Shown here: piece after piece, positions 2,254 to 34,231 of the stretch | Position numbering within the stretch: the stretch's first letter is position 1 | Layout: each line of letters starts with the position of its first letter | Origin: Christensenellaceae bacterium | Lineage (GTDB): Bacteria; Bacillota; Clostridia; Christensenellales; DTU072 | Direction: 5' to 3' | Length of the DNA stretch: 34,231 nt | NCBI GenBank assembly: GCA_031259085.1 | Contig: JAIRMA010000016.1 | Coordinates: 1 to 34,231 of the forward strand | Made by a program: the position numbers and the translations under genes | Notes under the pieces: model-generated | Database searches by the model: none | Seen by the model: only the letters and a program-made list of their open reading frames with translations | Told to the model about the DNA's origin: nothing

Positions 2254-4542
2254 TTGTACTCCTACACTTATGACACCATGACAGGTGGGTTGCTTCTTAA
2301 TTTGGAACCAACAGGTTTTTCAAAAGAGCCACGTCCAGTTTATGCTACAGAACTAGATTTGCTCGGTTTTGACAAATATTGGAAGTATGACAAGCAGACA
2401 GATTATCCGTATCTGTGGGCTGAATTAAATAATTACTATTATCGCGGGAAATTGGTTGCTAAATTAAAAGGCGGGAATGCATTCACCGCCCCCGAAATTA
2501 TTATACCTAAAGGAGATGATAATGAATTCGTGATGCCAGAACCTAATGGTGATTCGCTTTGTCAAATTGACATTCAAGGGATGGTGGACGCTAATTATGG
2601 GATTCTTGAAATCATAGAGCAATACACAGTCAAGAAAATATTAGCCATATATGGTAAGCATAAAAACCATCTTGATTGTTTTCATGTAGCTTTCTCTGGT
2701 GGCAAGGATAGTTGTGTACTATTAGATCTTGTAAAAAAAACATTGCCTAAAGGTAGCTATGTTGTGGTTTTCGGCGATACAGCAATGGAATTTCCTGATA
2801 CGTATGATGTCGTACGTAAGACTAAAGAGATGTGTAGCAAGGAGAATATATCATTCAGTATTGCGAATTCGTCCTTGATGCCAGCAGAATCATGGAAATT
2901 ATTTGGACCTCCATCTCGAACATTGAGCTGGTGTTGTTCGGTTCATAAAAGTACTCCGCAAGTTCTAAAGCTCCGCGAGATAACAGGTAAACACAATTAT
3001 ACTGGCATGGCATTTGTTGGGATTCGCGCTCATGAGAGTAGTAACCGGGCAGAATATGAATACGAAAATTATGGAAATAAAGTTAAGGGACAATACATTT
3101 TTTATCCGATGTTAGAGTGGACTTCTGCAGAGGTTTATCTATATGCTTATTCTAACAATATTATCTTAAATGATGCGTACAAAAAGGGAAATTCACGCGC
3201 TGGTTGCTTGGTTTGTCCAAAGGCTGGTGGGGCTAGTGATTACATAAGGCGCATTACATATCCAGACAAGGTAGCGGAATATTTTAGGATAATTAGAGAA
3301 TCGTGTGATACATTTGACGATACTCGATTCTGTGAATACATGAACAAAGGCGAATGGAAATCGCGCGTTAATGGGTTGTACTTGAAAGGCACAATCAAAA
3401 AATACCGCGAGGATGTAACGGATGGAATAGTACGAATAACAGTTATCAACCCATTATCTGAATATAGGGAATGGATTAAAACTATGGACTGGGATATTCC
3501 GTTTACAGTTGAAAAAACTGACACTGGTTATATTGTTACTGTATCTGAAATTGATCTTAAAAGCAATCACCTAAAAGCGAAAATATTTAAACAAGTTTTC
3601 AAGAAAGCTGCTTATTGTGGAGCATGTGGTGTTTGTGCTGCAAACTGTAGGAATGGTTGTATTTCATTTGAAAATAAAACAATAAAGATAGATAATTGCA
3701 GACACTGTCTTGATTGTCACACGATTCCTGGAGGCTGTATTTTATATGATTCTTTAAAAATACCAAACGGAGGTGCAAAAATGCGGTCAATAAATTCGTT
3801 TGCTACTTTTCCACCAAAACCTGAGTGGTTAGTATCATTCTTCAACAACAAAGACGAATTTTTCAAGTTAAACTCACTCGGACCACAACAAGAAATAAAG
3901 TTCAAAGTGTTTTTAGTAGATGCTGGGTTATCTGTCAATAATCATTTCTCTAAATTTGCAGACTTAATATCCTTTATTGGATGGAGGACTGTGACATCAA
4001 TGGGACTCATTCTAATAAATCTAGTCGCGGCAAATCCCCAGATTGAGTGGTATGTTAAAAAATTAGATCTAGATCATACGTATTCACTAAAAGACGCGCA
4101 GAATATGTTAATGAGTGATGGTTTAAAGGAACGAAATGCGGCTGATGTTGCTAGAGCTTTTAAAAGGATTGTAGCGACTCCCTTAGGCACTGTTCTTAGG
4201 TTTGGTATTGTAACCGATGTTAATGAGATCATTCGTACACCATGCGTTACAATTGACCATCGAGTGATTCTTTATGGATTGTTTAAGTTTGCGGAGAAAT
4301 GTAACAATTATAAAGAATTTACACTTACTACGCTTGTTAACAATAAAATCGTTCGTGATGGAGTCAGCCCTACACGTATATTTGGAATTAAACGTGAGGC
4401 TATGGAAAACAACCTTTTAGGCCTCTCCGCAAAATATCCAGATTTCATATCTGTCTCTTTTACATATGATCTTGATAGCATATCATTGAGTAAGAATAAG
4501 ACCTCACAAGATGTGCTTAATCTCTTTATGGAGGATAATTAA
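2254..4542 (+). CDS. brxP: BrxP: PAPS-reductase-like protein of type 4 BREX
   Basis: 762 residues from a TTG start, chosen because AAAAGGGGG lies about ten bases upstream, inside the end of the preceding gene. The PP-loop ATP-pyrophosphatase signature SGGKDS is at 148-153. Cys227-Cys228 (WCCSVHK) and Cys318/Cys321 (GCLVC) form the CC...CxxC pattern that binds a [4Fe-4S] cluster in APS reductases and DndC-like enzymes. A second cysteine-rich block, C455-x2-C-x2-C-x3-C-x3-C469 and then C482-x2-C-x2-C488, is ferredoxin-like. The C-terminal 230 residues resemble DUF4007, a domain known beside PAPS-reductase genes. In type 4 BREX this gene replaces the methyltransferase found in other types. The probable job is sulfur-dependent DNA modification, inferred by analogy with DndC. 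It lies directly upstream of brxC. Confidence 0.88.
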   Translation: MYSYTYDTMTGGLLLNLEPTGFSKEPRPVYATELDLLGFDKYWKYDKQTDYPYLWAELNNYYYRGKLVAKLKGGNAFTAPEIIIPKGDDNEFVMPEPNGDSLCQIDIQGMVDANYGILEIIEQYTVKKILAIYGKHKNHLDCFHVAFSGGKDSCVLLDLVKKTLPKGSYVVVFGDTAMEFPDTYDVVRKTKEMCSKENISFSIANSSLMPAESWKLFGPPSRTLSWCCSVHKSTPQVLKLREITGKHNYTGMAFVGIRAHESSNRAEYEYENYGNKVKGQYIFYPMLEWTSAEVYLYAYSNNIILNDAYKKGNSRAGCLVCPKAGGASDYIRRITYPDKVAEYFRIIRESCDTFDDTRFCEYMNKGEWKSRVNGLYLKGTIKKYREDVTDGIVRITVINPLSEYREWIKTMDWDIPFTVEKTDTGYIVTVSEIDLKSNHLKAKIFKQVFKKAAYCGACGVCAANCRNGCISFENKTIKIDNCRHCLDCHTIPGGCILYDSLKIPNGGAKMRSINSFATFPPKPEWLVSFFNNKDEFFKLNSLGPQQEIKFKVFLVDAGLSVNNHFSKFADLISFIGWRTVTSMGLILINLVAANPQIEWYVKKLDLDHTYSLKDAQNMLMSDGLKERNAADVARAFKRIVATPLGTVLRFGIVTDVNEIIRTPCVTIDHRVILYGLFKFAEKCNNYKEFTLTTLVNNKIVRDGVSPTRIFGIKREAMENNLLGLSAKYPDFISVSFTYDLDSISLSKNKTSQDVLNLFMEDN

Positions 4543-4543
4543 A

Positions 4544-7500
4544 ATGAATAACGAATTTAAAAAGTACAGTGAATATTTTGATATAGATAAGAATTATTTT
4601 CCTTGTATAGATGATGCAGCAATTGAAGCAGGAGCTCCATGGAAAAATACATATCCGCATAAATCTTTCATTAACCTGTTGACAGAATTTGAGCGTGCGC
4701 TAAGCCGTAGAAATGATAAAAAGTCACTATGGGTTGAAGGCGCATATGGGACTGGCAAATCACAGTGTGTTTTTGCATTGCGTAGAATTCTTGAGGTGAC
4801 AGATCAAGAATTATCTGAATGGTGGGATACTAAAAGTCCTTTAAAACAGAAAACAGACCTTCGTGATCAACTAATAAAGCATAAGCGTGAGGGCATAGTA
4901 GTAGCACATCGTTATGGAGCTGGTGGAATCACATCCCCACAACAACTTGCATACAAAATACAAGAAAGTGTAAAAGAAGCTTTAATTAAACAAGAAATAA
5001 CTTACCGTGGTGAGGGAGCATTAAAAGGAAGTGCCATTAAATGGCTTCAAGATAAAGACAACAATGAATACGTAACTAAACTGCTGACAAACCCCCAAAA
5101 ACAATGGCGCGACATATTCTCACAATCATGCGCAGATGATTTGATAAGTTCTCTGGAAAAAAATGAAAACGTTGATGAAACGATCAAAAATATTTTATCA
5201 CTAGTTGATGCAGGGATTACCGCGCTAGATTTCAATGCTGATAGACTTGTCTCGTGGCTAAAGGATGTTATAGATAAAAACAAGACTAAAATCGTGCTAA
5301 TTTGGGATGAATTTTCCGACTATTTTAAAGAAAATAGCAATAGTCTTTCTGAGTTTCAAAAAATAGTCTCATTAGTGCAGGATAAGCCATTCTATTTTAT
5401 CGTGGTAACACACCAAGCACAGGATAATTACATTAAAAATTCAGCCCAGGATGATGCAAAAAAAATGCTAGATCGTTTTGTTTCAATCAAGATTGATTTG
5501 CCAGATAATACTGCATTTGATCTCATCGGCGATGCATTTAAAGTAAAGAGTGACGCTGAAAAAAGTTGGAATCAAATAATTGGTGCATTGGACGACCGAG
5601 TTTCTACAATAAAGGATAAGGTCATGGATATTGCGAAGATAGATAATCAAGAAACAATACAAAGAATCCTACCAATTCACCCAATGACTGCATTATTTTT
5701 AAAACATATTGCTGTAGCGTTTCAATCGAATCAACGGAGCATGTTTGATTATATAAAGTCAGGAAATAAAGATGACGACGAGAATTTTCAATGGTATATT
5801 GAAAATCATAGTCCAGATAAGGAGCCATTCTTGACAGTAGATATGTTATGGAATTTTTTCTATGATAAACAAATAGATAAACTGCAACCAGAGGTTAAAT
5901 CAATAGTTAATTTTTTTAAACAACACTCAAAAGGCATGTGCGATGACCACAAGCGAGTTTTGAAGGTAATACTAATTATGCAGTCTCTTGATCAACGTTT
6001 TAGTGGGGATATTGAACTTTTTAAAGCGACTGATCAAAATCTCAATTATGTATTCGAAGCTTCAGATTTTGGTGTGTCTAGAAGTATTGCTAAAAAAATG
6101 CGTCAAGATGGTATTCTAATATACAAAAAATCCAATAATATTAGTTATTATTTTGCTTCTGTACATTCTGGAGATCAAGCAGAAATTGATAAGAAAAAAG
6201 AAATGCTCAGGAATGCTCCAATTCACCAATATATCGTAGAAGCTGGAATGTCAAAAATCTTGAGTCTACCGAAAGCACTCTCGCTTAGATTTGAAGAAGA
6301 ACAAGATGGGGGGATCAAATCAATAATTAGCGCACTTGGTAATTTTAAAGATAGTCTGCTATTAATAAAACCTGAGAACTGGAAGTTTAAGGCTGTTATG
6401 GTGTTTGCTAAAGATGATAGTGGAGTAAAGAAATTACGTGAAAAAATCAAAGAAGCAGTAAAAGATGAACAATACAAACATAACATCTTTATAGACACAC
6501 AATCAACCCCACTCGGAGAAGAATTGCTAGAAGAATTTATTAATCATTATGCCGAATCGTCGTGTTATCAAGGGAATGATTCTTCCTTAGCGCTGGAATA
6601 TCTAAATAAAGCCTATGCCGTTTTAAATGAGAAATGGAAAAAAAATATCTGTAATGGAAAGTTTTTTGTATTTACACACTCAAAACCAGACGGAGTAGAG
6701 TTAAACGGCGAAAAGGAAGTTGCTGATTATCTCAAAAAGATTGTGCTAGAGAAGTTCCCATATATATTTGATTTTACCGATGGTTTAAAAGATCCTCAAT
6801 TACAACTTAATGTTAATAGAAAAATACCAGCAAAATCTGGCATTTCTTGCAACACTAGTGGTGTTGTGGCTGGGATTGAAGAAAAAATTCTAAAGGGTAT
6901 ATGGAATATTCCTAATTATTGGGAAGATCCTGCAAAAGATACTCATCCCATATCAATAATAAAAAAGGACTTAGATCACCTTATTGAAAATAAACTAGAT
7001 AATATTGGCCGTATTGCAATTAACGAAATATGCAGCTTTTTACAAGATAATTATGGCTTTTCGCGTAGTGATCTATCAATATTTCTCACTGGATTTTTAT
7101 TGAAAGAATATGCTCAAGAACCATATCGATATGGCGATTCAAATAATGGATATGCGACAATGACACATGATTATCTAATAGATATGATTGCTAACAATTT
7201 CAATCCAAAACTCCAAAAAACATTTATAGTCAAGATTACAGAAGAAGAAATGACTTTTTATAACTTTACTAAACAGTCTTGGGACGTAGATCTTGAAAAA
7301 TGTCCTACAATTACGTCTACAATGACTAAAGTTATTGAAAAAATGAAAAAATTGAAATTGCCTGTATGGTGTCTAGAATATATTGATGATGAGAATATAT
7401 TCTATGTTGTACAAAAGTACATCGAATTTGTACAAAGTGAGGGATCTCCTCAATATGATAAGGCAGTGGAAATTGGTAGAATTCTGGATAAATTAGGATT

Positions 7501-8704
7501 GTCAGAAAAATTAACTTCATTATTAACATACGAAAAATGTATGAAGGGCATGAATAAGTATTTAGAAGCATTTGAAAACGGAATTATTTTGGAGCTTGCT
7601 GAAGATATTGGAGCACATGATAAATTGATAGATGATATTTGTAATCTATTCAAGGTCAAGCACTCATCCTTATGGAAAAAGGAAATAGGGGAAAAAGAAA
7701 TTCAAACCTTACAGATTAAATATGGTATAGTTAAAGAAAGTAATAAAATCCTTGATGAGAAGGTGAACTCATTAAATGGTGCCTACAAAAAATGGAAAGA
7801 AAAGCTTAATTTCATAGGTATATCTGCTGATGCACTTAAAATAAAATATTCAGACCTTGCAGAAATCTTTGACTTGCTATTGAAAATTTGTAATTCTGAG
7901 GAACAAGATAAATTATCAGATTCTGAACTTAAGCAATTTTACAATGGACTACAGAGACATGCTGAAGAGCTCAAACGCATATTAGATGACCCTTACAAAG
8001 AATTTGCTGAAATTTACAAACTATATTTAGATGGTCTTAATAGCGATGAAATTTATCAGGTATATTTAAAAATTGAAAAGGAAACCACGTTTTTAAATTT
8101 AACAAAAAGTAATAGCAATAAACGCGTAAAAGATGTAGCTGATCAGTATCAAAAAGCCCAATCAAAGTCGGAGTTGCTTGAATTATGGAAGAAACCGACC
8201 AAATCTAAAGATCCAATTGATTGGTCTAAAAAACTGGGAATTCCTATTCTTTATTTGGTTGATCTAAATGAATTCGATAAAGCAAAAAAGACATTTGAGG
8301 TTTTAAATAATGTTAATGGACGATCTGATAACGAAATTAATGATGCAAAAAATTACTTGCTTTATACAACATTAATTACTACTGAATTTGATGATGAAAA
8401 GATAAACGATTTATTTAAAAAACACATCCTGGGATCGTACAGTATTTTACTAAAAGACATTGATGGAGTTAAAGAAAAACTTAAAGAAATTGAGATTGTT
8501 GATGGAGTTTATGGGTGGTATGAAAATCCAAAGATTAAAGAAAAAGTCAAGGAGCTTGCTTTACTCGAATATAATGCAGGAGGGAGTGATGATGTGATAA
8601 AAAAGATTAAACAAATGGATGATGAACTATTTAAAAGTCAAATGAGTAAGTTAGTAGAAAAGAACATGACCTTGGGAATTGAAATAATGGAGATTTTTCA
8701 TTAA
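4544..8704 (+). CDS. brxC: BrxC-type giant P-loop ATPase (type 4 BREX)
   Basis: 1386 residues from ATG 4544, preferred over an in-frame ATG at 4511 because GGAGG sits nine bases upstream and because 4511 would overlap brxP. Walker A GAYGTGKS is at residues 66-73 and a Walker B-like LIWDEF ends at about 257 (Asp255-Glu256), with a sensor-like VVTHQAQ shortly after. The rest is mainly charged and helical, with coiled-coil-like stretches in the last 400 residues. Size, N-terminal P-loop and position between brxP and pglZ fit the BrxC/PglY ATPases required for BREX defence and modification. Its stop overlaps the pglZ start by one base (TAATG), indicating translational coupling. The type 4 assignment comes from the operon as a whole; the remote family is recognised by layout more than by motif. 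Confidence 0.85.
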   Translation: MNNEFKKYSEYFDIDKNYFPCIDDAAIEAGAPWKNTYPHKSFINLLTEFERALSRRNDKKSLWVEGAYGTGKSQCVFALRRILEVTDQELSEWWDTKSPLKQKTDLRDQLIKHKREGIVVAHRYGAGGITSPQQLAYKIQESVKEALIKQEITYRGEGALKGSAIKWLQDKDNNEYVTKLLTNPQKQWRDIFSQSCADDLISSLEKNENVDETIKNILSLVDAGITALDFNADRLVSWLKDVIDKNKTKIVLIWDEFSDYFKENSNSLSEFQKIVSLVQDKPFYFIVVTHQAQDNYIKNSAQDDAKKMLDRFVSIKIDLPDNTAFDLIGDAFKVKSDAEKSWNQIIGALDDRVSTIKDKVMDIAKIDNQETIQRILPIHPMTALFLKHIAVAFQSNQRSMFDYIKSGNKDDDENFQWYIENHSPDKEPFLTVDMLWNFFYDKQIDKLQPEVKSIVNFFKQHSKGMCDDHKRVLKVILIMQSLDQRFSGDIELFKATDQNLNYVFEASDFGVSRSIAKKMRQDGILIYKKSNNISYYFASVHSGDQAEIDKKKEMLRNAPIHQYIVEAGMSKILSLPKALSLRFEEEQDGGIKSIISALGNFKDSLLLIKPENWKFKAVMVFAKDDSGVKKLREKIKEAVKDEQYKHNIFIDTQSTPLGEELLEEFINHYAESSCYQGNDSSLALEYLNKAYAVLNEKWKKNICNGKFFVFTHSKPDGVELNGEKEVADYLKKIVLEKFPYIFDFTDGLKDPQLQLNVNRKIPAKSGISCNTSGVVAGIEEKILKGIWNIPNYWEDPAKDTHPISIIKKDLDHLIENKLDNIGRIAINEICSFLQDNYGFSRSDLSIFLTGFLLKEYAQEPYRYGDSNNGYATMTHDYLIDMIANNFNPKLQKTFIVKITEEEMTFYNFTKQSWDVDLEKCPTITSTMTKVIEKMKKLKLPVWCLEYIDDENIFYVVQKYIEFVQSEGSPQYDKAVEIGRILDKLGLSEKLTSLLTYEKCMKGMNKYLEAFENGIILELAEDIGAHDKLIDDICNLFKVKHSSLWKKEIGEKEIQTLQIKYGIVKESNKILDEKVNSLNGAYKKWKEKLNFIGISADALKIKYSDLAEIFDLLLKICNSEEQDKLSDSELKQFYNGLQRHAEELKRILDDPYKEFAEIYKLYLDGLNSDEIYQVYLKIEKETTFLNLTKSNSNKRVKDVADQYQKAQSKSELLELWKKPTKSKDPIDWSKKLGIPILYLVDLNEFDKAKKTFEVLNNVNGRSDNEINDAKNYLLYTTLITTEFDDEKINDLFKKHILGSYSILLKDIDGVKEKLKEIEIVDGVYGWYENPKIKEKVKELALLEYNAGGSDDVIKKIKQMDDELFKSQMSKLVEKNMTLGIEIMEIFH

Positions 8705-10983
8705 TGAGTGATTATAAAGAAGCTACTCAGAATTATTTAAAGGATTCTAAATTAAGGAAGCCTTATTTTATATTCATTAGCGATGAACAATATAAGGATG
8801 CAATAGAATATTTTAAAGGATCGAAATTAGAAGTTGTTCCGATGAGCAGTTTTTGTTATTCAGAAGACAAGATACCAGATGTAGATAAATTTACGGCCTA
8901 TTTGAGTGAAGCTGACGTTAATGTAAACTCTAACAAGTTTGTGGTGACAGGTCTTGGGGAATTTTTAGCACTTGAGGGGCGTGGCTATGCATCTAGTCAA
9001 CTATCAATATTAAAAGATTATAATATTAGTGCAGCAAAAGCAATTCTTCTTATTCGATGTCTGGGTTCATTAGTTGATAATTTGAAAAGCGATGTACGAT
9101 TTGATAATCGCCGATATATTATTGTAGATGGTGCAATTTCTAATATCTCATTTGCACTAGTGGATCAATCAATCGAAATCCCGGTATTAAAAGGATTCAA
9201 GGAAATACTTAAGGCATTGGAGGGCGGGCTGAACGGTGAAGTTGCGATTAACACACAAATAAGTTTAGATAAATCAATGTTAACAATTCATAAAATATCA
9301 AACGCTTTTGAAGCAATTAAAAGTTTGGCTCATAATTCGGTTTTTAAGGAAGTATGGTTTGAAGACGCACAGTGGATGGAATTACTATCTGAGCTTCAGA
9401 ACTATAATTTTATGATCGAGGAAGTTTTTCGTGGACACAATTTGAACACAGAGACTATTAAGGAATTTTATGATTCGTACTCAAAAAATATATATAAATA
9501 TTTGTATTTTATTTATCTAAAGGTGTATGGAATCAGAGGTAACGAATATTTACAATTTGTTATTTCCAAAACTGATAAATATATAGATTTAGAGAGAAAT
9601 ATTCTAAATAAATTGCTGGATCTCTTACCTAATGATCCGAATTTTGATAAGTATTATGATCAGCGCAAAAAACTAATGAAAAACCTTATTGGGTCTGGTA
9701 TTGTGCAATTTGCTAAAGATAAACACAAAATGGATAATGGCATTTACGTGTTAACGGACAATACATTAGCAGAGCGTGAAGAAATAGTTGCATGGTTAGC
9801 TACCAACCATAACACCTGTCTTAAAATGGATCATATTTATAAAAAACTTAAGAACATTTATCCAAATCTAGATGCTTATTTAAAGGAGTATGTTTTTAAA
9901 TCTCCAAATATCGAGGTAAATGAGCAATTTACAGAATATTTTAACGAATATAAGCGGCAAAAATTATATAATAAAATAGAGGATAAATTCATGCAGGATG
10001 TTGAACGTCTTGCTAAACCACCACGTATATATAATAATCTAAAATTTAGAGAAAGTATTTTAGAAACAATAGATAAAAACAACACTTATTTATATTGGAT
10101 GGACGCTCTTGGCGTTGAGTACTTAGGTTTGATTGAGACTTTGGCTGGGAAACATGGCCTTTTAATTCAAATAGATATAGCAAGAGCCGAGTTGCCAACG
10201 ACTACTCGTTTTAATAAAGAGTTCTTTGATGTTTGGCCAGATGAATCGCGAAAAAAATTGATAGAATTGGATCAGATAAAACATGCGCAGGTTGGTGGAT
10301 ATAATTTTGAGAAAAACCAGTTACCAATTCATCTAGCAAAAGAAATTGACGTAATCACTGAAATGATAAATAAAGCTGCAAGTAAACTTAAACAAAATGA
10401 TTGTGAGCGGATTTTGATAGTTAGTGACCACGGTGCATCTCGACTTGCTGTAATCGCGCGAAAAGAAGAAAAATATGATACAGGCACATCAGGTGTGAAT
10501 TCTGGGCGCTGTTGTGAAGTATTCCGCCCATATGATCTCGAATTTGCATCAGAAGAAAATGATTACATTGTGTTGGCTAATTATGGACGATTTAAGGGAA
10601 GCCGCGCTAGTAATGTTGAAGTACATGGTGGGGCATCATTAGAGGAGATTGTAATTCCTGTAATTCAATTAACAGTTAAATCTGGAAGCATAACTGTTAA
10701 ATTAATTTCTGACAAAATAGTTGTTGATTATAAAACCTGTGCAAAAATAACGCTGAGCGTTTACCCTACTCCAAAACAAAATGTTTTATTAACAATTGAT
10801 AACAAGCAATATAAAGCAACGAAAAATAATGACCATACTTTTTCAGTTGAGTTAACTGATATTAAAAAGGCTGGGGAGTATAATGCAGATGTTTTTGTAG
10901 GCGATAATCTTGTTGGCAATATATTAATTAAAACGCAAGGTAAAAGTGCAAGTATAAATAAAGACTTTGATGATTTAATTTGA
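8704..10983 (+). CDS. pglZ: PglZ-domain alkaline-phosphatase-fold BREX protein
   Basis: 759 residues; the ATG overlaps the brxC stop by one base. The PglZ (alkaline-phosphatase superfamily) core is seen from its metal-site motifs: WMDALG with Asp467 and, about 108 residues later, VSDHGASR with Asp575-His576. The N-terminal 450 residues are helical and not assignable by eye. After the PglZ core, at about 660-745, is a beta-rich Ig-like segment (KITLSVYPTPKQNVLLTID and following) that may be a binding module. PglZ is the common component of BREX systems, and family members act as metal-dependent nucleases or phosphodiesterases in some studies. Start and spacing agree with a GGAG-like site in the end of brxC. 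It is followed by brxL after eight bases. Confidence 0.92.
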   Translation: MSDYKEATQNYLKDSKLRKPYFIFISDEQYKDAIEYFKGSKLEVVPMSSFCYSEDKIPDVDKFTAYLSEADVNVNSNKFVVTGLGEFLALEGRGYASSQLSILKDYNISAAKAILLIRCLGSLVDNLKSDVRFDNRRYIIVDGAISNISFALVDQSIEIPVLKGFKEILKALEGGLNGEVAINTQISLDKSMLTIHKISNAFEAIKSLAHNSVFKEVWFEDAQWMELLSELQNYNFMIEEVFRGHNLNTETIKEFYDSYSKNIYKYLYFIYLKVYGIRGNEYLQFVISKTDKYIDLERNILNKLLDLLPNDPNFDKYYDQRKKLMKNLIGSGIVQFAKDKHKMDNGIYVLTDNTLAEREEIVAWLATNHNTCLKMDHIYKKLKNIYPNLDAYLKEYVFKSPNIEVNEQFTEYFNEYKRQKLYNKIEDKFMQDVERLAKPPRIYNNLKFRESILETIDKNNTYLYWMDALGVEYLGLIETLAGKHGLLIQIDIARAELPTTTRFNKEFFDVWPDESRKKLIELDQIKHAQVGGYNFEKNQLPIHLAKEIDVITEMINKAASKLKQNDCERILIVSDHGASRLAVIARKEEKYDTGTSGVNSGRCCEVFRPYDLEFASEENDYIVLANYGRFKGSRASNVEVHGGASLEEIVIPVIQLTVKSGSITVKLISDKIVVDYKTCAKITLSVYPTPKQNVLLTIDNKQYKATKNNDHTFSVELTDIKKAGEYNADVFVGDNLVGNILIKTQGKSASINKDFDDLI

Positions 10984-10991
10984 GGGAATAG

Positions 10992-12467
10992 ATGGTTGAG
11001 AAATTAAGAAATTGTTTTGATGAGATGGTCGTATATAAAAACCAAAAGGCTAACTTGTTTTCAGAGTTAACCTTACCGTCATTTATGCGAGATTGGCTTC
11101 TGAAGAAGTTTCAAGACGAAGATGGGCACTTCGATTCTGATGAAATGAAACGATTTGTGTACGCATATTTGCCAAAAAGGGAAGATTGGAAGGGGATTAA
11201 AAATCGTGTAATATATGACTACCAACGAGTTAAATTCCTTGCAAAAGTGGCAGTTGATATTGATATCAAGACAGGTTTAGTTACATTTTCGATGCCTGAC
11301 TATGGGTTGACGCATAGTGATACAATTATTGATGCAGCAGTATGGGAGGAATGTAGAGCTGACTTACTAGGTGGACATGAAACGTGGGGGATGGTTGAAA
11401 TTGGATATAAGCCTCCTGATGAAGAACTTGGTGGGTTTGGATTATTTAGTGCAAAATCTAAAAAAATGAATAATGGCAAAATTAAGCTGATAACTTTTAA
11501 AAAATTCTGCCCATATACAGTTGAGGTCTCTCATTTTAAAGAAGTTAGACGTGAGTTTGAAATTGATGAATGGATTGATATATTACTCGGTGCAGTTGAT
11601 TATAATGCCAAAGGTTTTTGCAATAAAGAGGAGAAACTTACAATGCTTACTCGATTGCTTCCGTTTGTTGAAAAAAGATTAAATCTCATTGAACTTGCTC
11701 CTAAAGGCACTGGCAAATCTTATCTGTTTGGCCGCGTTAGTCGCTTTGGTTGGCTGTCAAGCGGTGGTGTAATGAGCCGGGCTAAGATGTTTTATGATCA
11801 AAGCAAGCGCGTTGTAGGATTAGTAGCAGGGAACGATTTCATTACGTTAGATGAAGTACAGACAATCTCATTTACTAACACTGATGAGATTCGTGCTGCT
11901 CTTAAAGGTTATTTGGAGTTTGGGGTTTTCACTGTTGGAAATTTTCAAGGTGAGGCTGATGCGGGGGTAATACTCTGTGGGAACATAAGACAGGAATTAA
12001 TGAACCGTGACGATTATATTAACATGTTTATAGATCTACCACCAGTATTTCACGAGTCAGCGCTAATTGATCGTTTTCATGGATTTATTAAGGGTTGGAA
12101 TATTCCTAGAATGACTGAAGGGCACATGATGGTAGGCTGGGCGTTAAATTCTGAGTATTTCTGTTCCATAATGCATGAGTTACGTAGCGATACTAGCTAT
12201 CGTTCGATAGTGGAGCAACTTATAAAATGCCCAGAAGACGCTGATAAAAGGGACACAGAAGCTATAAAGAGGATTGCCACTGCGTATCTTAAATTATTAT
12301 TCCCGCACGTGAAGTCTCTAAAAGATATAAGTAGAAGTGATTTTGAAGAATACTGTTTTAAAAGAGCACGTAATATGCGTGGCACAATTAAATATCAGTT
12401 AGGAGAACTTGATGCTGAGTTTTCAGGAAAAGATTTACCTGCGCTAGAGGTTATTCAGCCACTTTAA
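10992..12467 (+). CDS. brxL: BrxL AAA+ ATPase, apparently lacking the Lon protease domain
   Basis: 491 residues; ATG preceded by GAGGGA, which overlaps the pglZ stop. The N-terminal half matches BrxL in layout. Walker A PKGTGKS is at 237-243, Walker B FITLDE ends at Glu288, and LIDRFHGF follows with a likely arginine finger. BrxL proteins of type 1 systems are about 680 residues and end in a Lon-type serine protease domain. Here the protein ends about 200 residues after Walker B, just after the AAA lid, with no Ser-Lys protease region. It is intact with a clean stop, so this looks like a short natural form and not a frameshift. BrxL forms ring-shaped DNA-binding assemblies in studied systems. 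Loss of the protease part fits a motor or DNA-clamp role. Confidence 0.85.
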   Translation: MVEKLRNCFDEMVVYKNQKANLFSELTLPSFMRDWLLKKFQDEDGHFDSDEMKRFVYAYLPKREDWKGIKNRVIYDYQRVKFLAKVAVDIDIKTGLVTFSMPDYGLTHSDTIIDAAVWEECRADLLGGHETWGMVEIGYKPPDEELGGFGLFSAKSKKMNNGKIKLITFKKFCPYTVEVSHFKEVRREFEIDEWIDILLGAVDYNAKGFCNKEEKLTMLTRLLPFVEKRLNLIELAPKGTGKSYLFGRVSRFGWLSSGGVMSRAKMFYDQSKRVVGLVAGNDFITLDEVQTISFTNTDEIRAALKGYLEFGVFTVGNFQGEADAGVILCGNIRQELMNRDDYINMFIDLPPVFHESALIDRFHGFIKGWNIPRMTEGHMMVGWALNSEYFCSIMHELRSDTSYRSIVEQLIKCPEDADKRDTEAIKRIATAYLKLLFPHVKSLKDISRSDFEEYCFKRARNMRGTIKYQLGELDAEFSGKDLPALEVIQPL

Positions 12468-27781: not shown

Positions 27782-28945
27782 ATGGCAGGAAACCAACAAA
27801 ATATAAGACCGAGAACAGCGCCACCTCCGTTCCCAGGGCGCCAGCCTCAGATGGGGCCTCGTCCGTATGCCAATACTCCACGAGGGGGTTATCAACGTCC
27901 TGGTGTTAAGCCTGCGGGTAAATCTACTACGCCTGTGCAGACGCTAAGTGCAAAAAAGCAACGAAAGATAGCAAGGGCACGCAAAAAGGAACGTGACTAT
28001 TTTTATGTAATGAGAAAAGGCATCTGTCTCTTTATATTTTTATTTTGTTTAGTAATCATAGCTGTGAGTGATGTTGGATTTGTGCCTTTAGAAGGCTTGC
28101 CTGTCGAGGTTAATAAGTTTACTGCAATACTTGCAAAACCTGATTACACACCTCTTGATCAGCGCGAAGTCGCGGCTGCAGAAGAAGATGGTGATGAAGA
28201 GTCAGATGAGGCTGTTGAATACGTACCAAAAGATGTATATATTTCACTTGCTGATTTGTTTTATGGGGCGGCTGCCCAACTAAAGATTTTGGAGGCGCCT
28301 GAATCATCATTAGTAGGTGTAACCTTTTATAACGATACACTAGATAAAATTGTAGCTAAAGCTGAAGGCTCTGATGATATGTTGACTACGCTTGCTCCAC
28401 ATGTTTTTAGATATGTACCCATAGTAGCCGTTGTCGCATTTAACTTGTTAATCATCTCTTTATTATTTGCTTTATTTGGGATGTTTGGGAAAAGGATATT
28501 TAAATTTGGGCTCATTAGTTTAGTGGTTCTAATTGCTTGTGTTGGGATGTTAACTTTTGGTTTAGCTGGGTTTGGCGCATATTATGTGCCAGTTGCAGAA
28601 GAAGTGCCTGATGAGATTATTGATGAGCCACAAGAAAGTCTCTTAATCCCGTCAAATGCCGAAGGTGATGAGGTTGAGGATCCAGATCAAGATACAGAGA
28701 CTGGAGAGACTGAAACTGATGATGAAGAAGAGAAAGTTCAAAGCACCATTGATTTTACAAATCTAATGTCTTTTATAAAGGGAGCATTCCCAACTATTCC
28801 TGCAACTGAAGCTGAGGCAACACCTGATGCGCCCGTTGTGACCGCTGGAGTTGGATTTCTAGCCCTAATAGGCGGTGGGATATTAATCTTTATCCTATCA
28901 ATTTTTGCAAAAAAGAAAATACCATACGCTATATTTGATAGATAA
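27782..28945 (+). CDS. Four-helix membrane protein with proline/arginine-rich N-terminus
   Basis: 387 residues; AAAGGAG six bases before ATG. No family recognised. Residues 1-60 are rich in Pro, Arg, Gln and Gly (PPPFPGRQPQMGPRPY) and presumably cytoplasmic, with a basic stretch (KKQRKIARARKKER) just before the first membrane helix. Membrane helices are at about 78-100, 210-233, 240-265 and 357-378. The loop at 110-205 holds an acidic run (EEDGDEESDEAVEYVP), and a second very acidic region is at 275-325 (DEVEDPDQDTETGETETDDE). It is first of a group of similar-topology genes. It lacks the QLTPIV segment of its four downstream neighbours but shares their proline-rich tail-then-helices layout. 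Confidence 0.75.
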   Translation: MAGNQQNIRPRTAPPPFPGRQPQMGPRPYANTPRGGYQRPGVKPAGKSTTPVQTLSAKKQRKIARARKKERDYFYVMRKGICLFIFLFCLVIIAVSDVGFVPLEGLPVEVNKFTAILAKPDYTPLDQREVAAAEEDGDEESDEAVEYVPKDVYISLADLFYGAAAQLKILEAPESSLVGVTFYNDTLDKIVAKAEGSDDMLTTLAPHVFRYVPIVAVVAFNLLIISLLFALFGMFGKRIFKFGLISLVVLIACVGMLTFGLAGFGAYYVPVAEEVPDEIIDEPQESLLIPSNAEGDEVEDPDQDTETGETETDDEEEKVQSTIDFTNLMSFIKGAFPTIPATEAEATPDAPVVTAGVGFLALIGGGILIFILSIFAKKKIPYAIFDR

Positions 28946-28970: not shown

Positions 28971-29183
28971 ATGGCAAAAAAGAACAAGAAACGATCGAAT
29001 GAGCTAATTGCTGAAAATGCTAATAATAGCAACGTTCCACCTCGTTTTTCTGCATCATTCAAAACAATTAATAATTGTGGCCCTGTGCCTGTTGCAAAGC
29101 CTGCAGATTTTATACAGTTAACACCAATTGTACAAACGATAGTTGATGTTCATGTCATTCAATATGAGGATAGTGAAGAATAA
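28971..29183 (+). CDS. Small soluble protein with QLTPIV motif
   Basis: 70 residues from ATG 28971, chosen over an ATG at 28905 inside the previous gene because AGGAG lies about eleven bases upstream. It has a basic N-terminus (AKKNKKRSN), no membrane helix, and near the C-terminus the shared segment FIQLTPIVQTIVDVHVIQY. The second half of that segment departs from the FVPY form of its neighbours. An acidic end (EDSEE) closes it. No known family. It starts 25 bases after the first membrane protein and is followed 86 bases later by the next gene, so it is probably co-transcribed. Confidence 0.65.
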   Translation: MAKKNKKRSNELIAENANNSNVPPRFSASFKTINNCGPVPVAKPADFIQLTPIVQTIVDVHVIQYEDSEE

Positions 29184-29269
29184 TTGTTAGAGTGGTTTTT
29201 AAAATTAGTAAATAAATTGACCAAAAGGTTAAGTTATATAAAATAAAGTAAAGGAGCGATAGTGACAAT

Positions 29270-30076
29270 ATGAGAAAAGAAGATAAATTCCCTGCTCAAT
29301 TGGCATCGTCAGCCACTAACCAAACAATTGATAGTGGCCAAACAAGAATTAGAACTGCTTCAATCAGGAAAATGCCTGTGTCTGAGCCATTTCCCGTATT
29401 GCCTGCATCTGTGCACATACAATTGACACCAATAGTACAGCCTGTTACATTTGTTCCGTATTCATCACAACAACAGCCATTGTTGACTTTTGATGGAATG
29501 GACGATGCAATGACGGCTGGCCAGCTAGATGGCTACAATGGTCAATATGATGGATACTATGATAATTACGATACTAGTCAGGGAGTTACGAAAAAAAGGA
29601 GAAAAGGTGGTACCTCACTTTTACTAATTTTGTTATCGTTACTAACTCTTGCGGTTTTGATCATTGGCAACTTTGTGTCTGCTGTCGTCGATTATACTGC
29701 AGTTATGGTCATCAATGAAGAAAAAGTTACAGCATACAAGCTGGTGACAGATCTATTTTTGAAGGATTTTGCTTTTGATGCTTTGTTCTCTAGTGATCAA
29801 AACATATTAACCTTAGGGCTAGCCGCTACTGCTGTTTTTTCTGCTTTGACATTCCTATTGTCCTTATTTAATTTTGGAACAGGTGGCGCGCCTCTTGCTA
29901 CTAAATTGACATCAACTTTAGCGTTCATAGGTGCTGCCTTTTATTTAGCATACGGGATGGTCAAAAAAGTTGAATTAGGCATGGGAGCATATATTGTTTT
30001 AGGTATTACAGCACTCATGACAATTATTGTCTTTGTTGTAAAACGATACAGGCCTAAAAAGGATAATGCAGGCTAA
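29270..30076 (+). CDS. Four-helix membrane protein with QLTPIV motif
   Basis: 268 residues; AAGGAG lies 13 bases upstream of the ATG, a slightly long spacing. Residues 1-105 are cytoplasmic-like, with IQLTPIVQPVTFVPYSS at about 50-66, then a Q-rich stretch and a Tyr/Gly/Asp-rich linker (DGYNGQYDGYYDNYD). A basic KKRRKGG precedes the first of four helices at about 115-137, 177-200, 205-230 and 236-258. The C-terminus is basic (KRYRPKKD). No family is recognised. The 330-residue protein two genes on has the same plan, so they are probably distant paralogues. Confidence 0.72.
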   Translation: MRKEDKFPAQLASSATNQTIDSGQTRIRTASIRKMPVSEPFPVLPASVHIQLTPIVQPVTFVPYSSQQQPLLTFDGMDDAMTAGQLDGYNGQYDGYYDNYDTSQGVTKKRRKGGTSLLLILLSLLTLAVLIIGNFVSAVVDYTAVMVINEEKVTAYKLVTDLFLKDFAFDALFSSDQNILTLGLAATAVFSALTFLLSLFNFGTGGAPLATKLTSTLAFIGAAFYLAYGMVKKVELGMGAYIVLGITALMTIIVFVVKRYRPKKDNAG

Positions 30077-30138
30077 TTAGATTTTAAACACAAAGAGTTT
30101 TAACTATAAATCCATACCAAAAAAATATATATTATGTA

Positions 30139-30167
30139 TTGTATTTATGTGATAAATGGTATATAAT
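30139..30167 (+). promoter_or_regulatory. Internal promoter of the motif cluster
   Basis: TTGTAT, 17 bases, TATAAT, with the expected start about 25 bases before the ATG at 30199. It would give the last part of the cluster transcription of its own. Confidence 0.6.
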
Positions 30168-30198
30168 ATAACTTAAATTCTTGAAAGGAGAGAATCAT

Positions 30199-30579
30199 AT
30201 GCGTAAACGCGCAAAAGAACAGATTATACCACAAAGCACCGTGATAAGATCATCTGAAGGATTAAGGCAACCACAAACAGGGCCAAATCCGTCTGTACAA
30301 CAATCTGGCAATGCCCCTTATAGGCTACCTACAAGTGGTTTATTTGATGTTTCAACAAATGGTATGCCAATGGGTCTCCCACGATACACCTCGATTGATG
30401 ATTATGGACGCATTTACACTCCAGTTATGACATTTGGTCCACAGCCAAACAGTGCGCCTGTTCCAATCCCGATCCCGTCTCAGATCGTTCAGTTAACGCC
30501 AATAGTTTCACCTGTTGCGTTTGTTCCGTATTCTACTCAGAATCAGGGTTTGTATCAGTTTGATGAAGTTTATGATTAA
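30199..30579 (+). CDS. Small soluble proline-rich protein with QLTPIV motif
   Basis: 126 residues from ATG 30199; the TTG at 30181 is rejected because AAAGGAGAG lies between the two and serves the ATG. It has a basic N-terminus, a long Pro/Gln/Asn/Ser-rich body with no membrane helix, and at 92-125 the shared segment IVQLTPIVSPVAFVPYSTQN followed by QFDEVYD. It ends a few residues after the segment, so the segment is C-terminal here while it precedes membrane helices in its neighbours. No family recognised. Confidence 0.7.
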   Translation: MRKRAKEQIIPQSTVIRSSEGLRQPQTGPNPSVQQSGNAPYRLPTSGLFDVSTNGMPMGLPRYTSIDDYGRIYTPVMTFGPQPNSAPVPIPIPSQIVQLTPIVSPVAFVPYSTQNQGLYQFDEVYD

Positions 30580-30607
30580 TAATCCAAAGTAAAGGATGGT
30601 AAAAATA

Positions 30608-31603
30608 ATGGATATAAAATCTAACCCTATGTTTAACACTGCTCCTGTGTCGCCTGAGCATCAGCAACCTGGTAAATGGGTTCCAGTAGACACATCAACT
30701 TTGGGTTTTTCTTTGCAGGGGCATCCAAATCAAATAGTCAATGGACCTGATGGTTTTATGTATAGGATAGGCGGAGCTCCTCAAGATCCACAAAGTGTCG
30801 GGTTGCCAGGTAGTGCAGCAAATGCTATACCTACTCCTCCTAACATTGTACAGATGCCCCCAATAGTGCAACCTATTGCATTAGTGCCGTATACATCACT
30901 AAATCAACCACTATTGCAGTATGATCCTTATTCTAGGCCACAAGAGCCAAAACTGGAGACAGTGCTACCTACGTATGACAAAAAACCATACAGGGCTGTT
31001 AGCTTGACTGCATTAATTTTTGCGGCACTTGGAATAGTGGCATTGCTTCTATCATTCGTCTCATCGTTTGTTCAAACAACAAATCGAAATGCATTTGAAT
31101 TTGGCGGTATAGATTCAATCAAAACATTATTAGTTAATTTCAATATAATAGATGAGGGATCAGCCCCTGTTTATTATACGTCAATATGGAAGGCTAATAG
31201 TGAGGCTAGCACAATGACAAAAATCGTTTCTTACGCGCTACCAGTTCTCATTATTGTTGCTATTGTTTTCTTTATGTTATTATTTATTAAATATTTCAAG
31301 AGAATAATCGAAAAGAAATCACCGCGTTCATTTAGTGTTCTAGCCTTAATAAATCTAATCTTGTGTTTAGCTATTGGAATGTGTTTATACATAATTGCAA
31401 AAGGCGAGAGTGGCGGATCGACCACAATCACGGATTTCATAATGTTTAAAGGTTTGGTTAAACCAGGGATTGGTTTAATAATAGCCTTGGTAGCTTCACT
31501 AGCTTTATTAATTGTACCTTTGTTTGCTAAAGCATATCAATTCAAGTTAGAAGATCCATCTAACGTAGGTGAGGCTTTCCAATCATATGTCATAAATCCT
31601 TAA
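30608..31603 (+). CDS. Four-helix membrane protein with QLTPIV-like motif
   Basis: 331 residues from ATG 30608; the ATG at 30596 would lie on the ribosome site AAAGGA itself. Residues 1-130 are cytoplasmic-like and proline-rich, with IVQMPPIVQPIALVPYTS at about 78-95, then LNQPLLQYDPYSR. Four helices follow, at about 135-160, 205-233, 245-268 and 285-310, with a loop of 45 residues after the first. No family recognised. Architecture matches the 268-residue protein upstream. A terminator follows at 31624. Confidence 0.72.
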   Translation: MDIKSNPMFNTAPVSPEHQQPGKWVPVDTSTLGFSLQGHPNQIVNGPDGFMYRIGGAPQDPQSVGLPGSAANAIPTPPNIVQMPPIVQPIALVPYTSLNQPLLQYDPYSRPQEPKLETVLPTYDKKPYRAVSLTALIFAALGIVALLLSFVSSFVQTTNRNAFEFGGIDSIKTLLVNFNIIDEGSAPVYYTSIWKANSEASTMTKIVSYALPVLIIVAIVFFMLLFIKYFKRIIEKKSPRSFSVLALINLILCLAIGMCLYIIAKGESGGSTTITDFIMFKGLVKPGIGLIIALVASLALLIVPLFAKAYQFKLEDPSNVGEAFQSYVINP

Positions 31604-31867: not shown

Positions 31868-31956
31868 TTGATTGATTGTTTGTGTTTTTGGATGTTTCTT
31901 GGCACAAAGTTATTATTGGTAAAGTCACGAGTGTTGTGACACGAGGAGTATTAATT

Positions 31957-32799
31957 ATGTTTCTTGCCGCAGTTACAGATAATATTAAACTTACAGGCAT
32001 ATTAATAGATGCGGTCGTAATCGTACTTACTATAATAGTTGCACTAATTTGTTCGAAAGTAGGTTTTTTAAAGATTTTTAAAGGATTATTAGCTGCTGTA
32101 TTGACAATAATTCTTGCAGTTATGTTGATTAATCCAATTCATACTGTGTTAAAGGATAGCACTCAGTGGGAGTCTGACCTTTCTAATTCGCTTGCAACAC
32201 CTTTAGGCTCTGCTCTTAAAATAGATTCATCCTTTACATTGCGATATATACCAGAAGAGGCAGCCACTGAAGGGAGCCCTGTGGGGATTGTGTTCACTGA
32301 AGGGTCTACTGTCATAAGCATAGATGATCTTGAATCTGATGGCAATTTATTTGATTTCAGAAAAACCGCAATTAAACATCTGGTATTACCTCAAGCTGAA
32401 AAATACTTCGATGACACCCCTGAAGGCACTGTTAATGTTCTTAAAACACTAGCAGATAACGTGAGTTATATAATCATGATTGTAGGAATATTTATTGTTC
32501 TTGCAATCATATTAAGAATTGTAATTGGCATTATCCTAGCAATCATGAAAAAGCTAATTGCTAGATTTTACCTTATTCATTTTGTGGATCATTTGATTGG
32601 TTTTGTTGCTGGAATAGCTTTCGTGATTGGGTTTGTTTATGTAATACTAGGTGTTCTCAAGGCTTTTGACGGGAGATCGTTCATGGACCAAATTAAAACT
32701 GGAATTGAATCTACGTCACTGGTTAAATATTTATACAATGAAAATTTATTAACACCAATAATCCAAGGGTTTGTTGATAAAATATTCGAAAAGAAATAG
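31957..32799 (+). CDS. CvpA-like membrane protein
   Basis: 280 residues from ATG 31957, chosen over a TTG at 31876 because GAGGAG lies eight bases upstream. Helices are at about 15-35, 43-65, 182-210 and 220-255. A stretch of about 100 residues outside the membrane lies between helices two and three (NPIHTVLKDSTQWESDLSNS to VNVLKTLADN). The first two helices and the ending IARFYLIHFVDHLIGFVAGI recall the CvpA/colicin-V-production family. That family is loosely defined, so the name is tentative. It has its own promoter and palindrome and is followed after 20 bases by the partial gene at the window end, so the two form an operon. Confidence 0.65.
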   Translation: MFLAAVTDNIKLTGILIDAVVIVLTIIVALICSKVGFLKIFKGLLAAVLTIILAVMLINPIHTVLKDSTQWESDLSNSLATPLGSALKIDSSFTLRYIPEEAATEGSPVGIVFTEGSTVISIDDLESDGNLFDFRKTAIKHLVLPQAEKYFDDTPEGTVNVLKTLADNVSYIIMIVGIFIVLAIILRIVIGIILAIMKKLIARFYLIHFVDHLIGFVAGIAFVIGFVYVILGVLKAFDGRSFMDQIKTGIESTSLVKYLYNENLLTPIIQGFVDKIFEKK

Positions 32800-32819
32800 G
32801 CCTCAGTTTTGGAGATGAT

Positions 32820-34231
32820 ATGAAAAGTTTCTTTAGTTTTTTAATTGGTATATTAGTTGGCATCGCGCTTTTAGTGGGGAGTGTTGGATTAGTTGGTTAC
32901 TTAGTGCTATCATCTTACACAGTAGGCGATGTTGCTGATGTTTTAGGGGTCGATAAAGAAAAAACTGGATTAACTGACGATGAATTAGCGTATGAAATCA
33001 TAAACTCAATATTTCCGTTACTAAATTCTTTTAGTGACATAATGAATATGACCGTTGAACAATTTGAATCAACGATAGGTACAAGAGCACTTTCCTCATT
33101 TTTAGTTGCCACATTTGGGGCTGACGCAACAACTCTTAGGAGTGGGAAGTTGTCTAATATAATGGAAAACACACTAAAATCATTATCATTAGGCCCAATT
33201 GTTAACGCTTTAAGAATTGAGCTTCCTAAGGACATCCCTCTATTTAGCGATCCAGATTTCTTGAACAAACCATTGGTTGGTCAATTTTCATCATTTAATG
33301 ATATTAGGATTGATCAGTTAGTTGAAATAGTTTATGATGATGATGCTACTGATGAGAATAAAGCTAGTGATAAAATATTACAAAAACTAGGAAAGCTTAC
33401 TATTGAAGAGTTGAAAGGCGATAGTATAATGGAAACGATAGGTGATATGGAGCTAGGCGATATCATCGATGAATCCGAAAATGAGGACTCAATCCTCAAC
33501 AATCTCAGAGGATACAAAATCAGTGAATTATCTACAGCTATTGATAATATGCCTATCACAGATGTATTTACAATAAATGAAAACAGCAACATGGTGCTCC
33601 AAAATCTAAAAAACGGCAAATACGATGGTGGAGAGGATGGTAAGCCTGTTACGATAAGTCAAATTGACAAAGCATTGCCATCTGCCATTGAAAATTGTGT
33701 AATAGGTGATTTTTTAGGCGAACAAACCAGTAATGAAGAACGCATTTTAACATCCCTTAGAGGAACACAACTAAATTCAACAGATATGAATAATAAAATT
33801 AAGAGTCTTACTTTAGCTGATATGTTTGAAAACTACGACGTGGGATTTTTAGGGCTTGTTCCTCCAGAGACAACATTAAATGGTTTGTCAGGTGCTATCC
33901 AAAAGCCTATTACTGAAACCTCGATGTATAGGTTAGAAAAGGTCGGGATATACGAATTTGATTTAGAAAACAAAAATGAACGTGTTAAATCTGTATTTTA
34001 TAATTCAACTACTCAGGGCGTTTTAAAAACTTATCTTAATATTATTACTGATCCTGGTAGTATTCTTAATAGTACAACAGGTACCTCATTCGAAATATCA
34101 GAGAGTATTTCAAATTTTACAGATTGGATGAATAACCTTGACGATAAACCTGGAGATGGGGACACGTTGATTTTAACTGAAGACATTAGTTTTTCAAATG
34201 ATAGTGATGAACCTTTTATAATAACTGTAGC
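32820..34231 (+). CDS. Large membrane-anchored repeat protein (3' partial)
   Basis: ATG 32820 with GGAG a few bases upstream. The frame is open for 470 codons to the right edge. Residues 5-32 form one membrane helix (FFSFLIGILVGIALLVGSVG), so the rest is probably outside the cell. At least three repeats of about 30-35 residues follow with the pattern ILxxLxG-x-(T/K/Q)IxxL...ITDxF: near 33375-33468, 33491-33570 and 33743-33829. The segments ILNNLRGYKISEL and ILTSLRGTQLNST are the clearest. No enzyme motif and no known domain name. It follows the CvpA-like gene by 20 bases. Such repeats suggest an elongated surface or scaffold protein; that is inference. Confidence 0.7.
   Translation, partial: MKSFFSFLIGILVGIALLVGSVGLVGYLVLSSYTVGDVADVLGVDKEKTGLTDDELAYEIINSIFPLLNSFSDIMNMTVEQFESTIGTRALSSFLVATFGADATTLRSGKLSNIMENTLKSLSLGPIVNALRIELPKDIPLFSDPDFLNKPLVGQFSSFNDIRIDQLVEIVYDDDATDENKASDKILQKLGKLTIEELKGDSIMETIGDMELGDIIDESENEDSILNNLRGYKISELSTAIDNMPITDVFTINENSNMVLQNLKNGKYDGGEDGKPVTISQIDKALPSAIENCVIGDFLGEQTSNEERILTSLRGTQLNSTDMNNKIKSLTLADMFENYDVGFLGLVPPETTLNGLSGAIQKPITETSMYRLEKVGIYEFDLENKNERVKSVFYNSTTQGVLKTYLNIITDPGSILNSTTGTSFEISESISNFTDWMNNLDDKPGDGDTLILTEDISFSNDSDEPFIITV

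Follow-up and report, generated by a model that had tools for sequence, protein, structure and literature searches.

Why do four neighbouring genes of a Christensenellaceae bacterium, two for soluble and two for membrane proteins, encode the same short segment? The genes lie in a stretch of 34,231 nucleotides (contig JAIRMA010000016.1, referred to here as the window), where an initial annotation had singled out positions 28971-31603 and suggested a docking, assembly or sorting function. The cluster and its segment copies are listed below; 4TM stands for four membrane helices.

M1, 27782..28945 (+): 4TM protein of 387 aa that lacks the segment; in the window the cluster begins with this gene
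P1, 28971..29183 (+): 70-aa soluble protein; first half of the segment only, residues 47-55, 29109-29135 (feature range about 29088-29141)
P2, 29270..30076 (+): 268-aa protein; N-terminal segment, predicted to be cytoplasmic, residues 49-75, 29414-29494 (feature range 29393-29497), then the 4TM domain
P3, 30199..30579 (+): 126-aa soluble protein; segment at the C-terminal end, residues 96-122, 30484-30564 (feature range 30463-30570)
P4, 30608..31603 (+): 331-aa protein (probable start); N-terminal part with WVPVD/GPDG, then the segment, residues 80-106, 30845-30925 (feature range 30824-30931), then the 4TM domain

The start of P4 at 30608, which gives 331 aa, is the probable one with AAAGG just upstream; an in-frame ATG at 30596 overlaps this ribosome-binding site. 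A promoter and terminator scan yielded terminators not above those in shuffled sequences.

The segment and its copies

Translation placed a 27-residue segment in all four proteins of 28971-31603, with half of it in P1. Its consensus is P-V-x-x-P-x-x-x-[IV]-Q-[LM]-x-P-I-V-x-P-[IV]-x-x-V-P-Y-[ST]-x-Q-x-Q-P-L-x-x-[YF]-D, in which Q-x2-P-I-V-x-P-x3-VPY are the invariant positions. In phmmer comparisons among the four proteins, P2 matched P3 at 4e-11, P3 matched P4 at 1e-10, P2 matched P4 at 1e-7 and P1 matched P3 at 2e-6; with P2 as a query against the whole window genome, P3 was matched at 9e-9. At the level of sequence, the likeness among the four proteins is not a matter of chance. The genome holds the segment in five places only, the four described here and protein Z, encoded beside glnS on contig 41.

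The first copy had been described as keeping only the first half of the pattern, and this is correct for P1. The half copy was found in the window's genus and one neighbouring genus, while the P1 orthologues of other genera have the full segment, for example PVAKPADFIQLTPIVQPLSIVPYSTQLQPLAQFDEDDEY. By this comparison, the half segment of P1 is a local loss in these two genera. It also indicates that the full segment is not required in every protein.

The conserved part of P3 reads GLPxYxSxDxYGRxYxPxMxYGP, and in some relatives P3 carries an N-terminal zinc-ribbon fusion. In two P3 proteins of one genus (L033 6999-7475 and L045 9430-9912), a zinc ribbon like that of Z occurs at the N-terminus and the second half of the segment is missing.

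The membrane proteins are paralogues

The hosts had been called otherwise unlike. This does not hold for P2 and P4, whose 4TM domains are homologous without the segment (hhalign 96.5%, E 8e-10). Moreover, the upstream gene M1, which lies outside the range of the initial annotation, belongs to the same 4TM family. M1 has large acidic outer loops and the C-terminus KKIPYAIFDR, and its orthologues adjoin P1, P2, P3 or P4 in the window's family (f1). Two further members were found at a second locus of the window genome, on contig 41 (L107), directly behind a glnS-type gene:

glnS, L107 4027-5673
Z, L107 5849-6931: two zinc ribbons, variant segment IIVPYVNPAQNLWQYNPNVAYRYE, four helices
M0, L107 6947-7837: segment-less 4TM protein

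The 4TM domains of P2, P4, M0, M1 and Z, trimmed of the segment and of all other residues up to the first helix, were compared profile against profile with hhalign. All ten of the ten pairs matched, at 71-99.8%; M1 matched M0 with an E of 5e-29, and P4 and P2 at 96% and 90%, respectively. Unrelated membrane proteins used as controls (MFS, CvpA, SecE) stayed at or below 2.5%. By these profile comparisons P2, P4, M1, M0 and Z are a paralogous 4TM family, homologous even without the segment.

In a tree of the 4TM domains the orthologues of P2 (25/25), P4 (20/20) and M1 (15) each formed one clade with full support, which places the duplications before the family f1. A duplication had been read from the similarity of the copies at the DNA level. 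The genes are indeed paralogous, yet the DNA adds little: identical codons were found at 12/18, 9/15 and 9/16 shared residues versus 7.8, 6.3 and 7.1 expected, with P values of 0.03, 0.12 and 0.24. Because the duplications are older than the family, the DNA likeness is mostly protein conservation. A recent duplication was ruled out by the codon counts and the 4TM tree.

Z and some P3 proteins have N-terminal zinc ribbons that resemble the generic domains DZR (PF12773) and Zn_Ribbon_1 (PF13240), while the segment and the 4TM part of Z match no family. Z is itself a 4TM protein in the window's family with the segment before the first helix. A single-sequence search was no guide to the distribution of Z, since zinc ribbons are promiscuous. 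In one genome the Z gene seems to be split into two overlapping frames (L044 12337-13439), owing to a frameshift or an assembly error.

Conservation, selection and predicted disorder

Across orthologues the segment is the best-conserved 27-residue window of P4, with a mean pairwise identity of 85% versus 36% in the rest of the protein, and likewise of P2 (68% versus 32%). In P3 the values were 53% versus 40%, and an adjoining window was slightly higher. Codon comparison with the sister genome G002 gave 1 amino-acid versus 33 synonymous differences in 80 segment codons, and 185 versus 245 in 642 other codons. For genome G001 the corresponding numbers were 6 versus 37 in 79 segment codons and 281 versus 211 in 631 other codons. 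As judged from these codon counts, the segment is under strong purifying selection.

These data bear on the view that the genes were duplicated recently and that their likeness is a neutral leftover. That they lie side by side as paralogues speaks for it; but the duplications predate the family, and the part conserved best is the segment, in which nearly all changes are synonymous. We consider a neutral leftover scarcely credible.

AlphaFold2 modelled the 4TM parts of P4 and P2 with a pLDDT of mostly 85-97; the segment reached about 45-57 in P4 and about 52-63 in P2. According to the positive-inside rule, the charge distribution puts the N-terminal tail with the segment on the inner side, so that the segment would be cytoplasmic. 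Taken together, conservation, selection, low pLDDT and charge indicate that the segment is a conserved, probably disordered cytoplasmic motif.

Weak likeness to claudins and search for known families

Pfam, NCBIfam and PADLOC contain no family that covers the cluster proteins in the window, nothing being above cut-off there. M1, P2, P3 and P4 matched none of the PADLOC models of anti-phage defence. A profile search of the PDB gave nothing significant (E at least 0.36). The SUR7 profile (PF06687) produced weak matches with E 0.008-0.12 and 12-16 bits versus a cut-off of 29.6.

With the P4 model as a Foldseek query, claudin, TARP and their relatives made up almost all of the 50 best PDB matches (E 0.04-0.45). 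The P2 model gave many claudin and TARP matches mixed with soluble four-helix bundles (E 0.025-0.9). The best E values for the two models were thus 0.025-0.04 and none was below 0.001. The likeness to the claudin/TARP (PMP22-EMP-MP20-claudin) superfamily, which includes fungal SUR7/PalI, consists of four helices, cytoplasmic ends and short extracellular beta strands after helix 1; this topology, in which both termini are cytoplasmic and the first outer loop holds the beta strands, is present in the P4 and P2 models and in the charge distribution. The claudin signature of the first outer loop, W-(x)n-W-x2-C-x8-10-C, is absent in M1, P2 and P4, and P2 has no cysteine at all. Unlike members of the superfamily, the window proteins are bacterial, carry the segment on a cytoplasmic tail, as predicted, and lack the outer-loop signature. 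Membership in the claudin/PMP22 superfamily was rejected on account of the missing signature and of the lack of a significant sequence-profile or fold match. Thus, from the models, the 4TM fold appears weakly claudin-like in topology and we do not claim membership.

The cargo-loading peptides of encapsulins and microcompartments are likewise short and conserved and lie at the ends of different proteins, but here the hosts are homologous membrane proteins. A cargo tag is disfavoured because no shell gene was recognised near the cluster and no unrelated clients occur in the window genome. Literature searches for claudin-like proteins in prokaryotes and for these bacteria brought up nothing relevant. 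We regard the system as new as a whole, with the caution that part of its newness is ignorance of its function.

Distribution and layout of the cluster

Among 58 relatives, 33 of the 34 genomes of the window's family f1 contained the segment, and genera with a match numbered 11 in all; the single f1 genome without it is 68% complete. In the order the segment was detected in 66/396 genomes, all from the families f1, f14 and f3. In samples of 391 genomes of the class and 399 of the phylum, the window's own genome was the sole match. Those relatives that have names are MAGs bearing the labels Christensenellaceae, Candidatus Stercoripulliclostridium, Clostridiales DTU072 and others; the nearest relative is the isolate Cc175_bin14 with a P4 72% identical. 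A viral or plasmid module was discarded as an explanation because a search of viral contigs and plasmids gave no relative of P4. The cluster belongs to the old core genome and is carried neither by viruses nor by plasmids.

Across genomes, the segment was not scattered but confined to one syntenic locus type. The copies of f1 are mostly clustered, and the cluster usually has 8-10 genes next to glnS. The gene order shared by most f1 genera is glnS, Z, M0, a short gene, M1, a short gene (P1), P2, P3 and P4, often followed by secE-nusG-rplK-rplA. In the window's genus the cluster is split in two: Z and M0 are kept with glnS, on another contig in the window genome, and M1-P1-P2-P3-P4 are placed before a cvpA-like gene. 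Family f3 showed the minimal arrangement, a trio of genes behind glnS. One encodes a soluble zinc-ribbon protein with the segment at its C-terminal end; the other two encode 4TM proteins that carry it at the N-terminus, often in degenerate form in the first of them. Family f14 has an intermediate gene set.

The flanks of the cluster in the window were also inspected. At 31954-34231 it is followed by a CvpA-like protein (Pfam Colicin_V, 6e-8) and a long protein with one N-terminal helix, which has no family match and is conserved in the genus. Far upstream, at 2254-12467, lie BREX-type defence genes of type 4 composition (BrxP, BrxC, PglZ and BrxL; PADLOC E 1e-179 or better), preceded at 15-2252 by an ORF of 745 aa with no match.

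The distribution is informative on whether housekeeping machinery, such as that for localisation, membrane insertion or controlled proteolysis, recognises the segment as a signal, so that it would not be an assembly element. The same element occurs at the N-terminus of some hosts and at the C-terminus of others, which would fit such a signal. However, there is no carrier outside the system in the window genome, and the class-wide and phylum-wide samples, which share that machinery, lack the segment. We therefore rate a housekeeping signal as rather improbable. A general sorting signal, one of the functions initially suggested, is disfavoured since the window genome has no client outside the 4TM/zinc-ribbon system.

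Another proposal is that the cluster replaces a DivIVA-type polar or septal scaffold in f1, where DivIVA was above cut-off in 1/34 genomes versus most representatives of the order's other families. Yet in f3 and f14, which have the segment system, DivIVA was above cut-off in 11/15 segment-bearing genomes tested, and the loss in f1 is one event. The DivIVA domain (PF05103) is absent from the cluster proteins scanned; there is no sequence or domain relation between DivIVA and the cluster, and the two co-occur in f3 and f14. Replacement thus appears very improbable. A common role with DivIVA and other bacterial membrane scaffolds as membrane organiser is conceivable as speculation.

Fused and separate tails

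The segment is fused to the membrane protein in P2, P4 and Z, while M0 and M1 are without it. Of 74 distinct short segment proteins, 69 directly adjoin a gene for a segment-less 4TM protein; since adjacency in the main cluster is inherited and mostly reflects one ancestral order, these are not 69 independent events, and the orphan loci provide about three. The orphan pairs outside the main cluster are situated at L031 5148-6135, L114 1413-2361, L115 4198-5067 and L116 about 8000-8921, with those of L031 and L114 being orthologous. Downstream of each orphan short segment protein, and on its strand, lies a gene for a 4TM protein that lacks the segment (three genomes). A point against this pattern is M0 on contig 41 of the window genome, which no short segment protein adjoins. 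Fusion in some cases and separation in others is a classic sign of cooperating proteins, and a tail that is fused here and separate there implies physical association.

A second motif, [ST]PYxxxYxxA, was recognised in the N-terminal tail of the segment-less 4TM proteins. [STNV]PY occurs in 14/16 M0 proteins versus 1.5 expected from shuffles, and in 3/3 orphans; M0 examples with RDMSSPYxxxYxxAR are L032 10462-11322 and L044 11382-12266. M1 proteins end in K-[VI]-P-Y-[SA]-I-F-D, e.g. KKVPYSIFDR. Both motifs may be complementary sites.

Proposed function

Docking or assembly is the part of the original suggestion that is best supported, by purifying selection, predicted disorder, the predicted cytoplasmic side, the single syntenic locus type and the occurrence in cis or in a small partner protein. 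The two results named in advance as refuting it, scattered hits and a known domain, were looked for and did not arise. We favor the view, which we hold at slightly better than even, that the segment serves one lineage-specific membrane complex of 4TM proteins as its dedicated assembly motif, which is short, linear and cytoplasmic and is provided in cis or in trans. The complex would comprise the paralogous, weakly claudin-like 4TM proteins P2, P4, M1 and M0 together with Z and the small soluble proteins P1 and P3. The segment copies would reside in flexible cytoplasmic tails, which in P2, P4 and Z precede helix 1 and in the soluble proteins form the C-terminus. Membrane subunits without a segment would receive one in trans from the small protein encoded next to them. 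In extended form the tails may bind one common cytoplasmic partner surface, by which different subunits would be gathered.

The main rival holds that the segments bind each other with no separate partner, such that soluble and membrane tails stack as a layer under the membrane. All copies are conserved at the same residues, and in f3 the segment can occur in each protein of the minimal trio, within which no segment-free soluble protein lies. On the other hand, prolines at every 4-7 residues should make stacked strands unlikely, and the segment by itself received no structure from AlphaFold2. We judge self-association unlikely, if less so than the other alternatives.

Our most likely guess at the cellular role of the complex is a membrane scaffold. 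More specifically, and tentatively, at less than even confidence, the cluster may encode an undescribed bacterial membrane scaffold, in which a single disordered cytoplasmic motif, either fused or supplied as separate small tail proteins, joins as many as ten paralogous proteins of the claudin-like 4TM and zinc-ribbon kinds.

A core-genome cluster of 5-10 genes without a described family is present family-wide and can be traced in two more families. Its most conserved feature is a 27-residue segment, predicted to be disordered, and not a folded domain; this offers a direct handle, as one peptide may serve to capture the partner. Supply of a tail in cis or in trans, fused or by a small protein, would be an unusual way to build a membrane complex, and a bacterial family with claudin-like topology, if confirmed, would be of interest to structural biologists. 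The segment system is one that little-known gut bacteria have kept.
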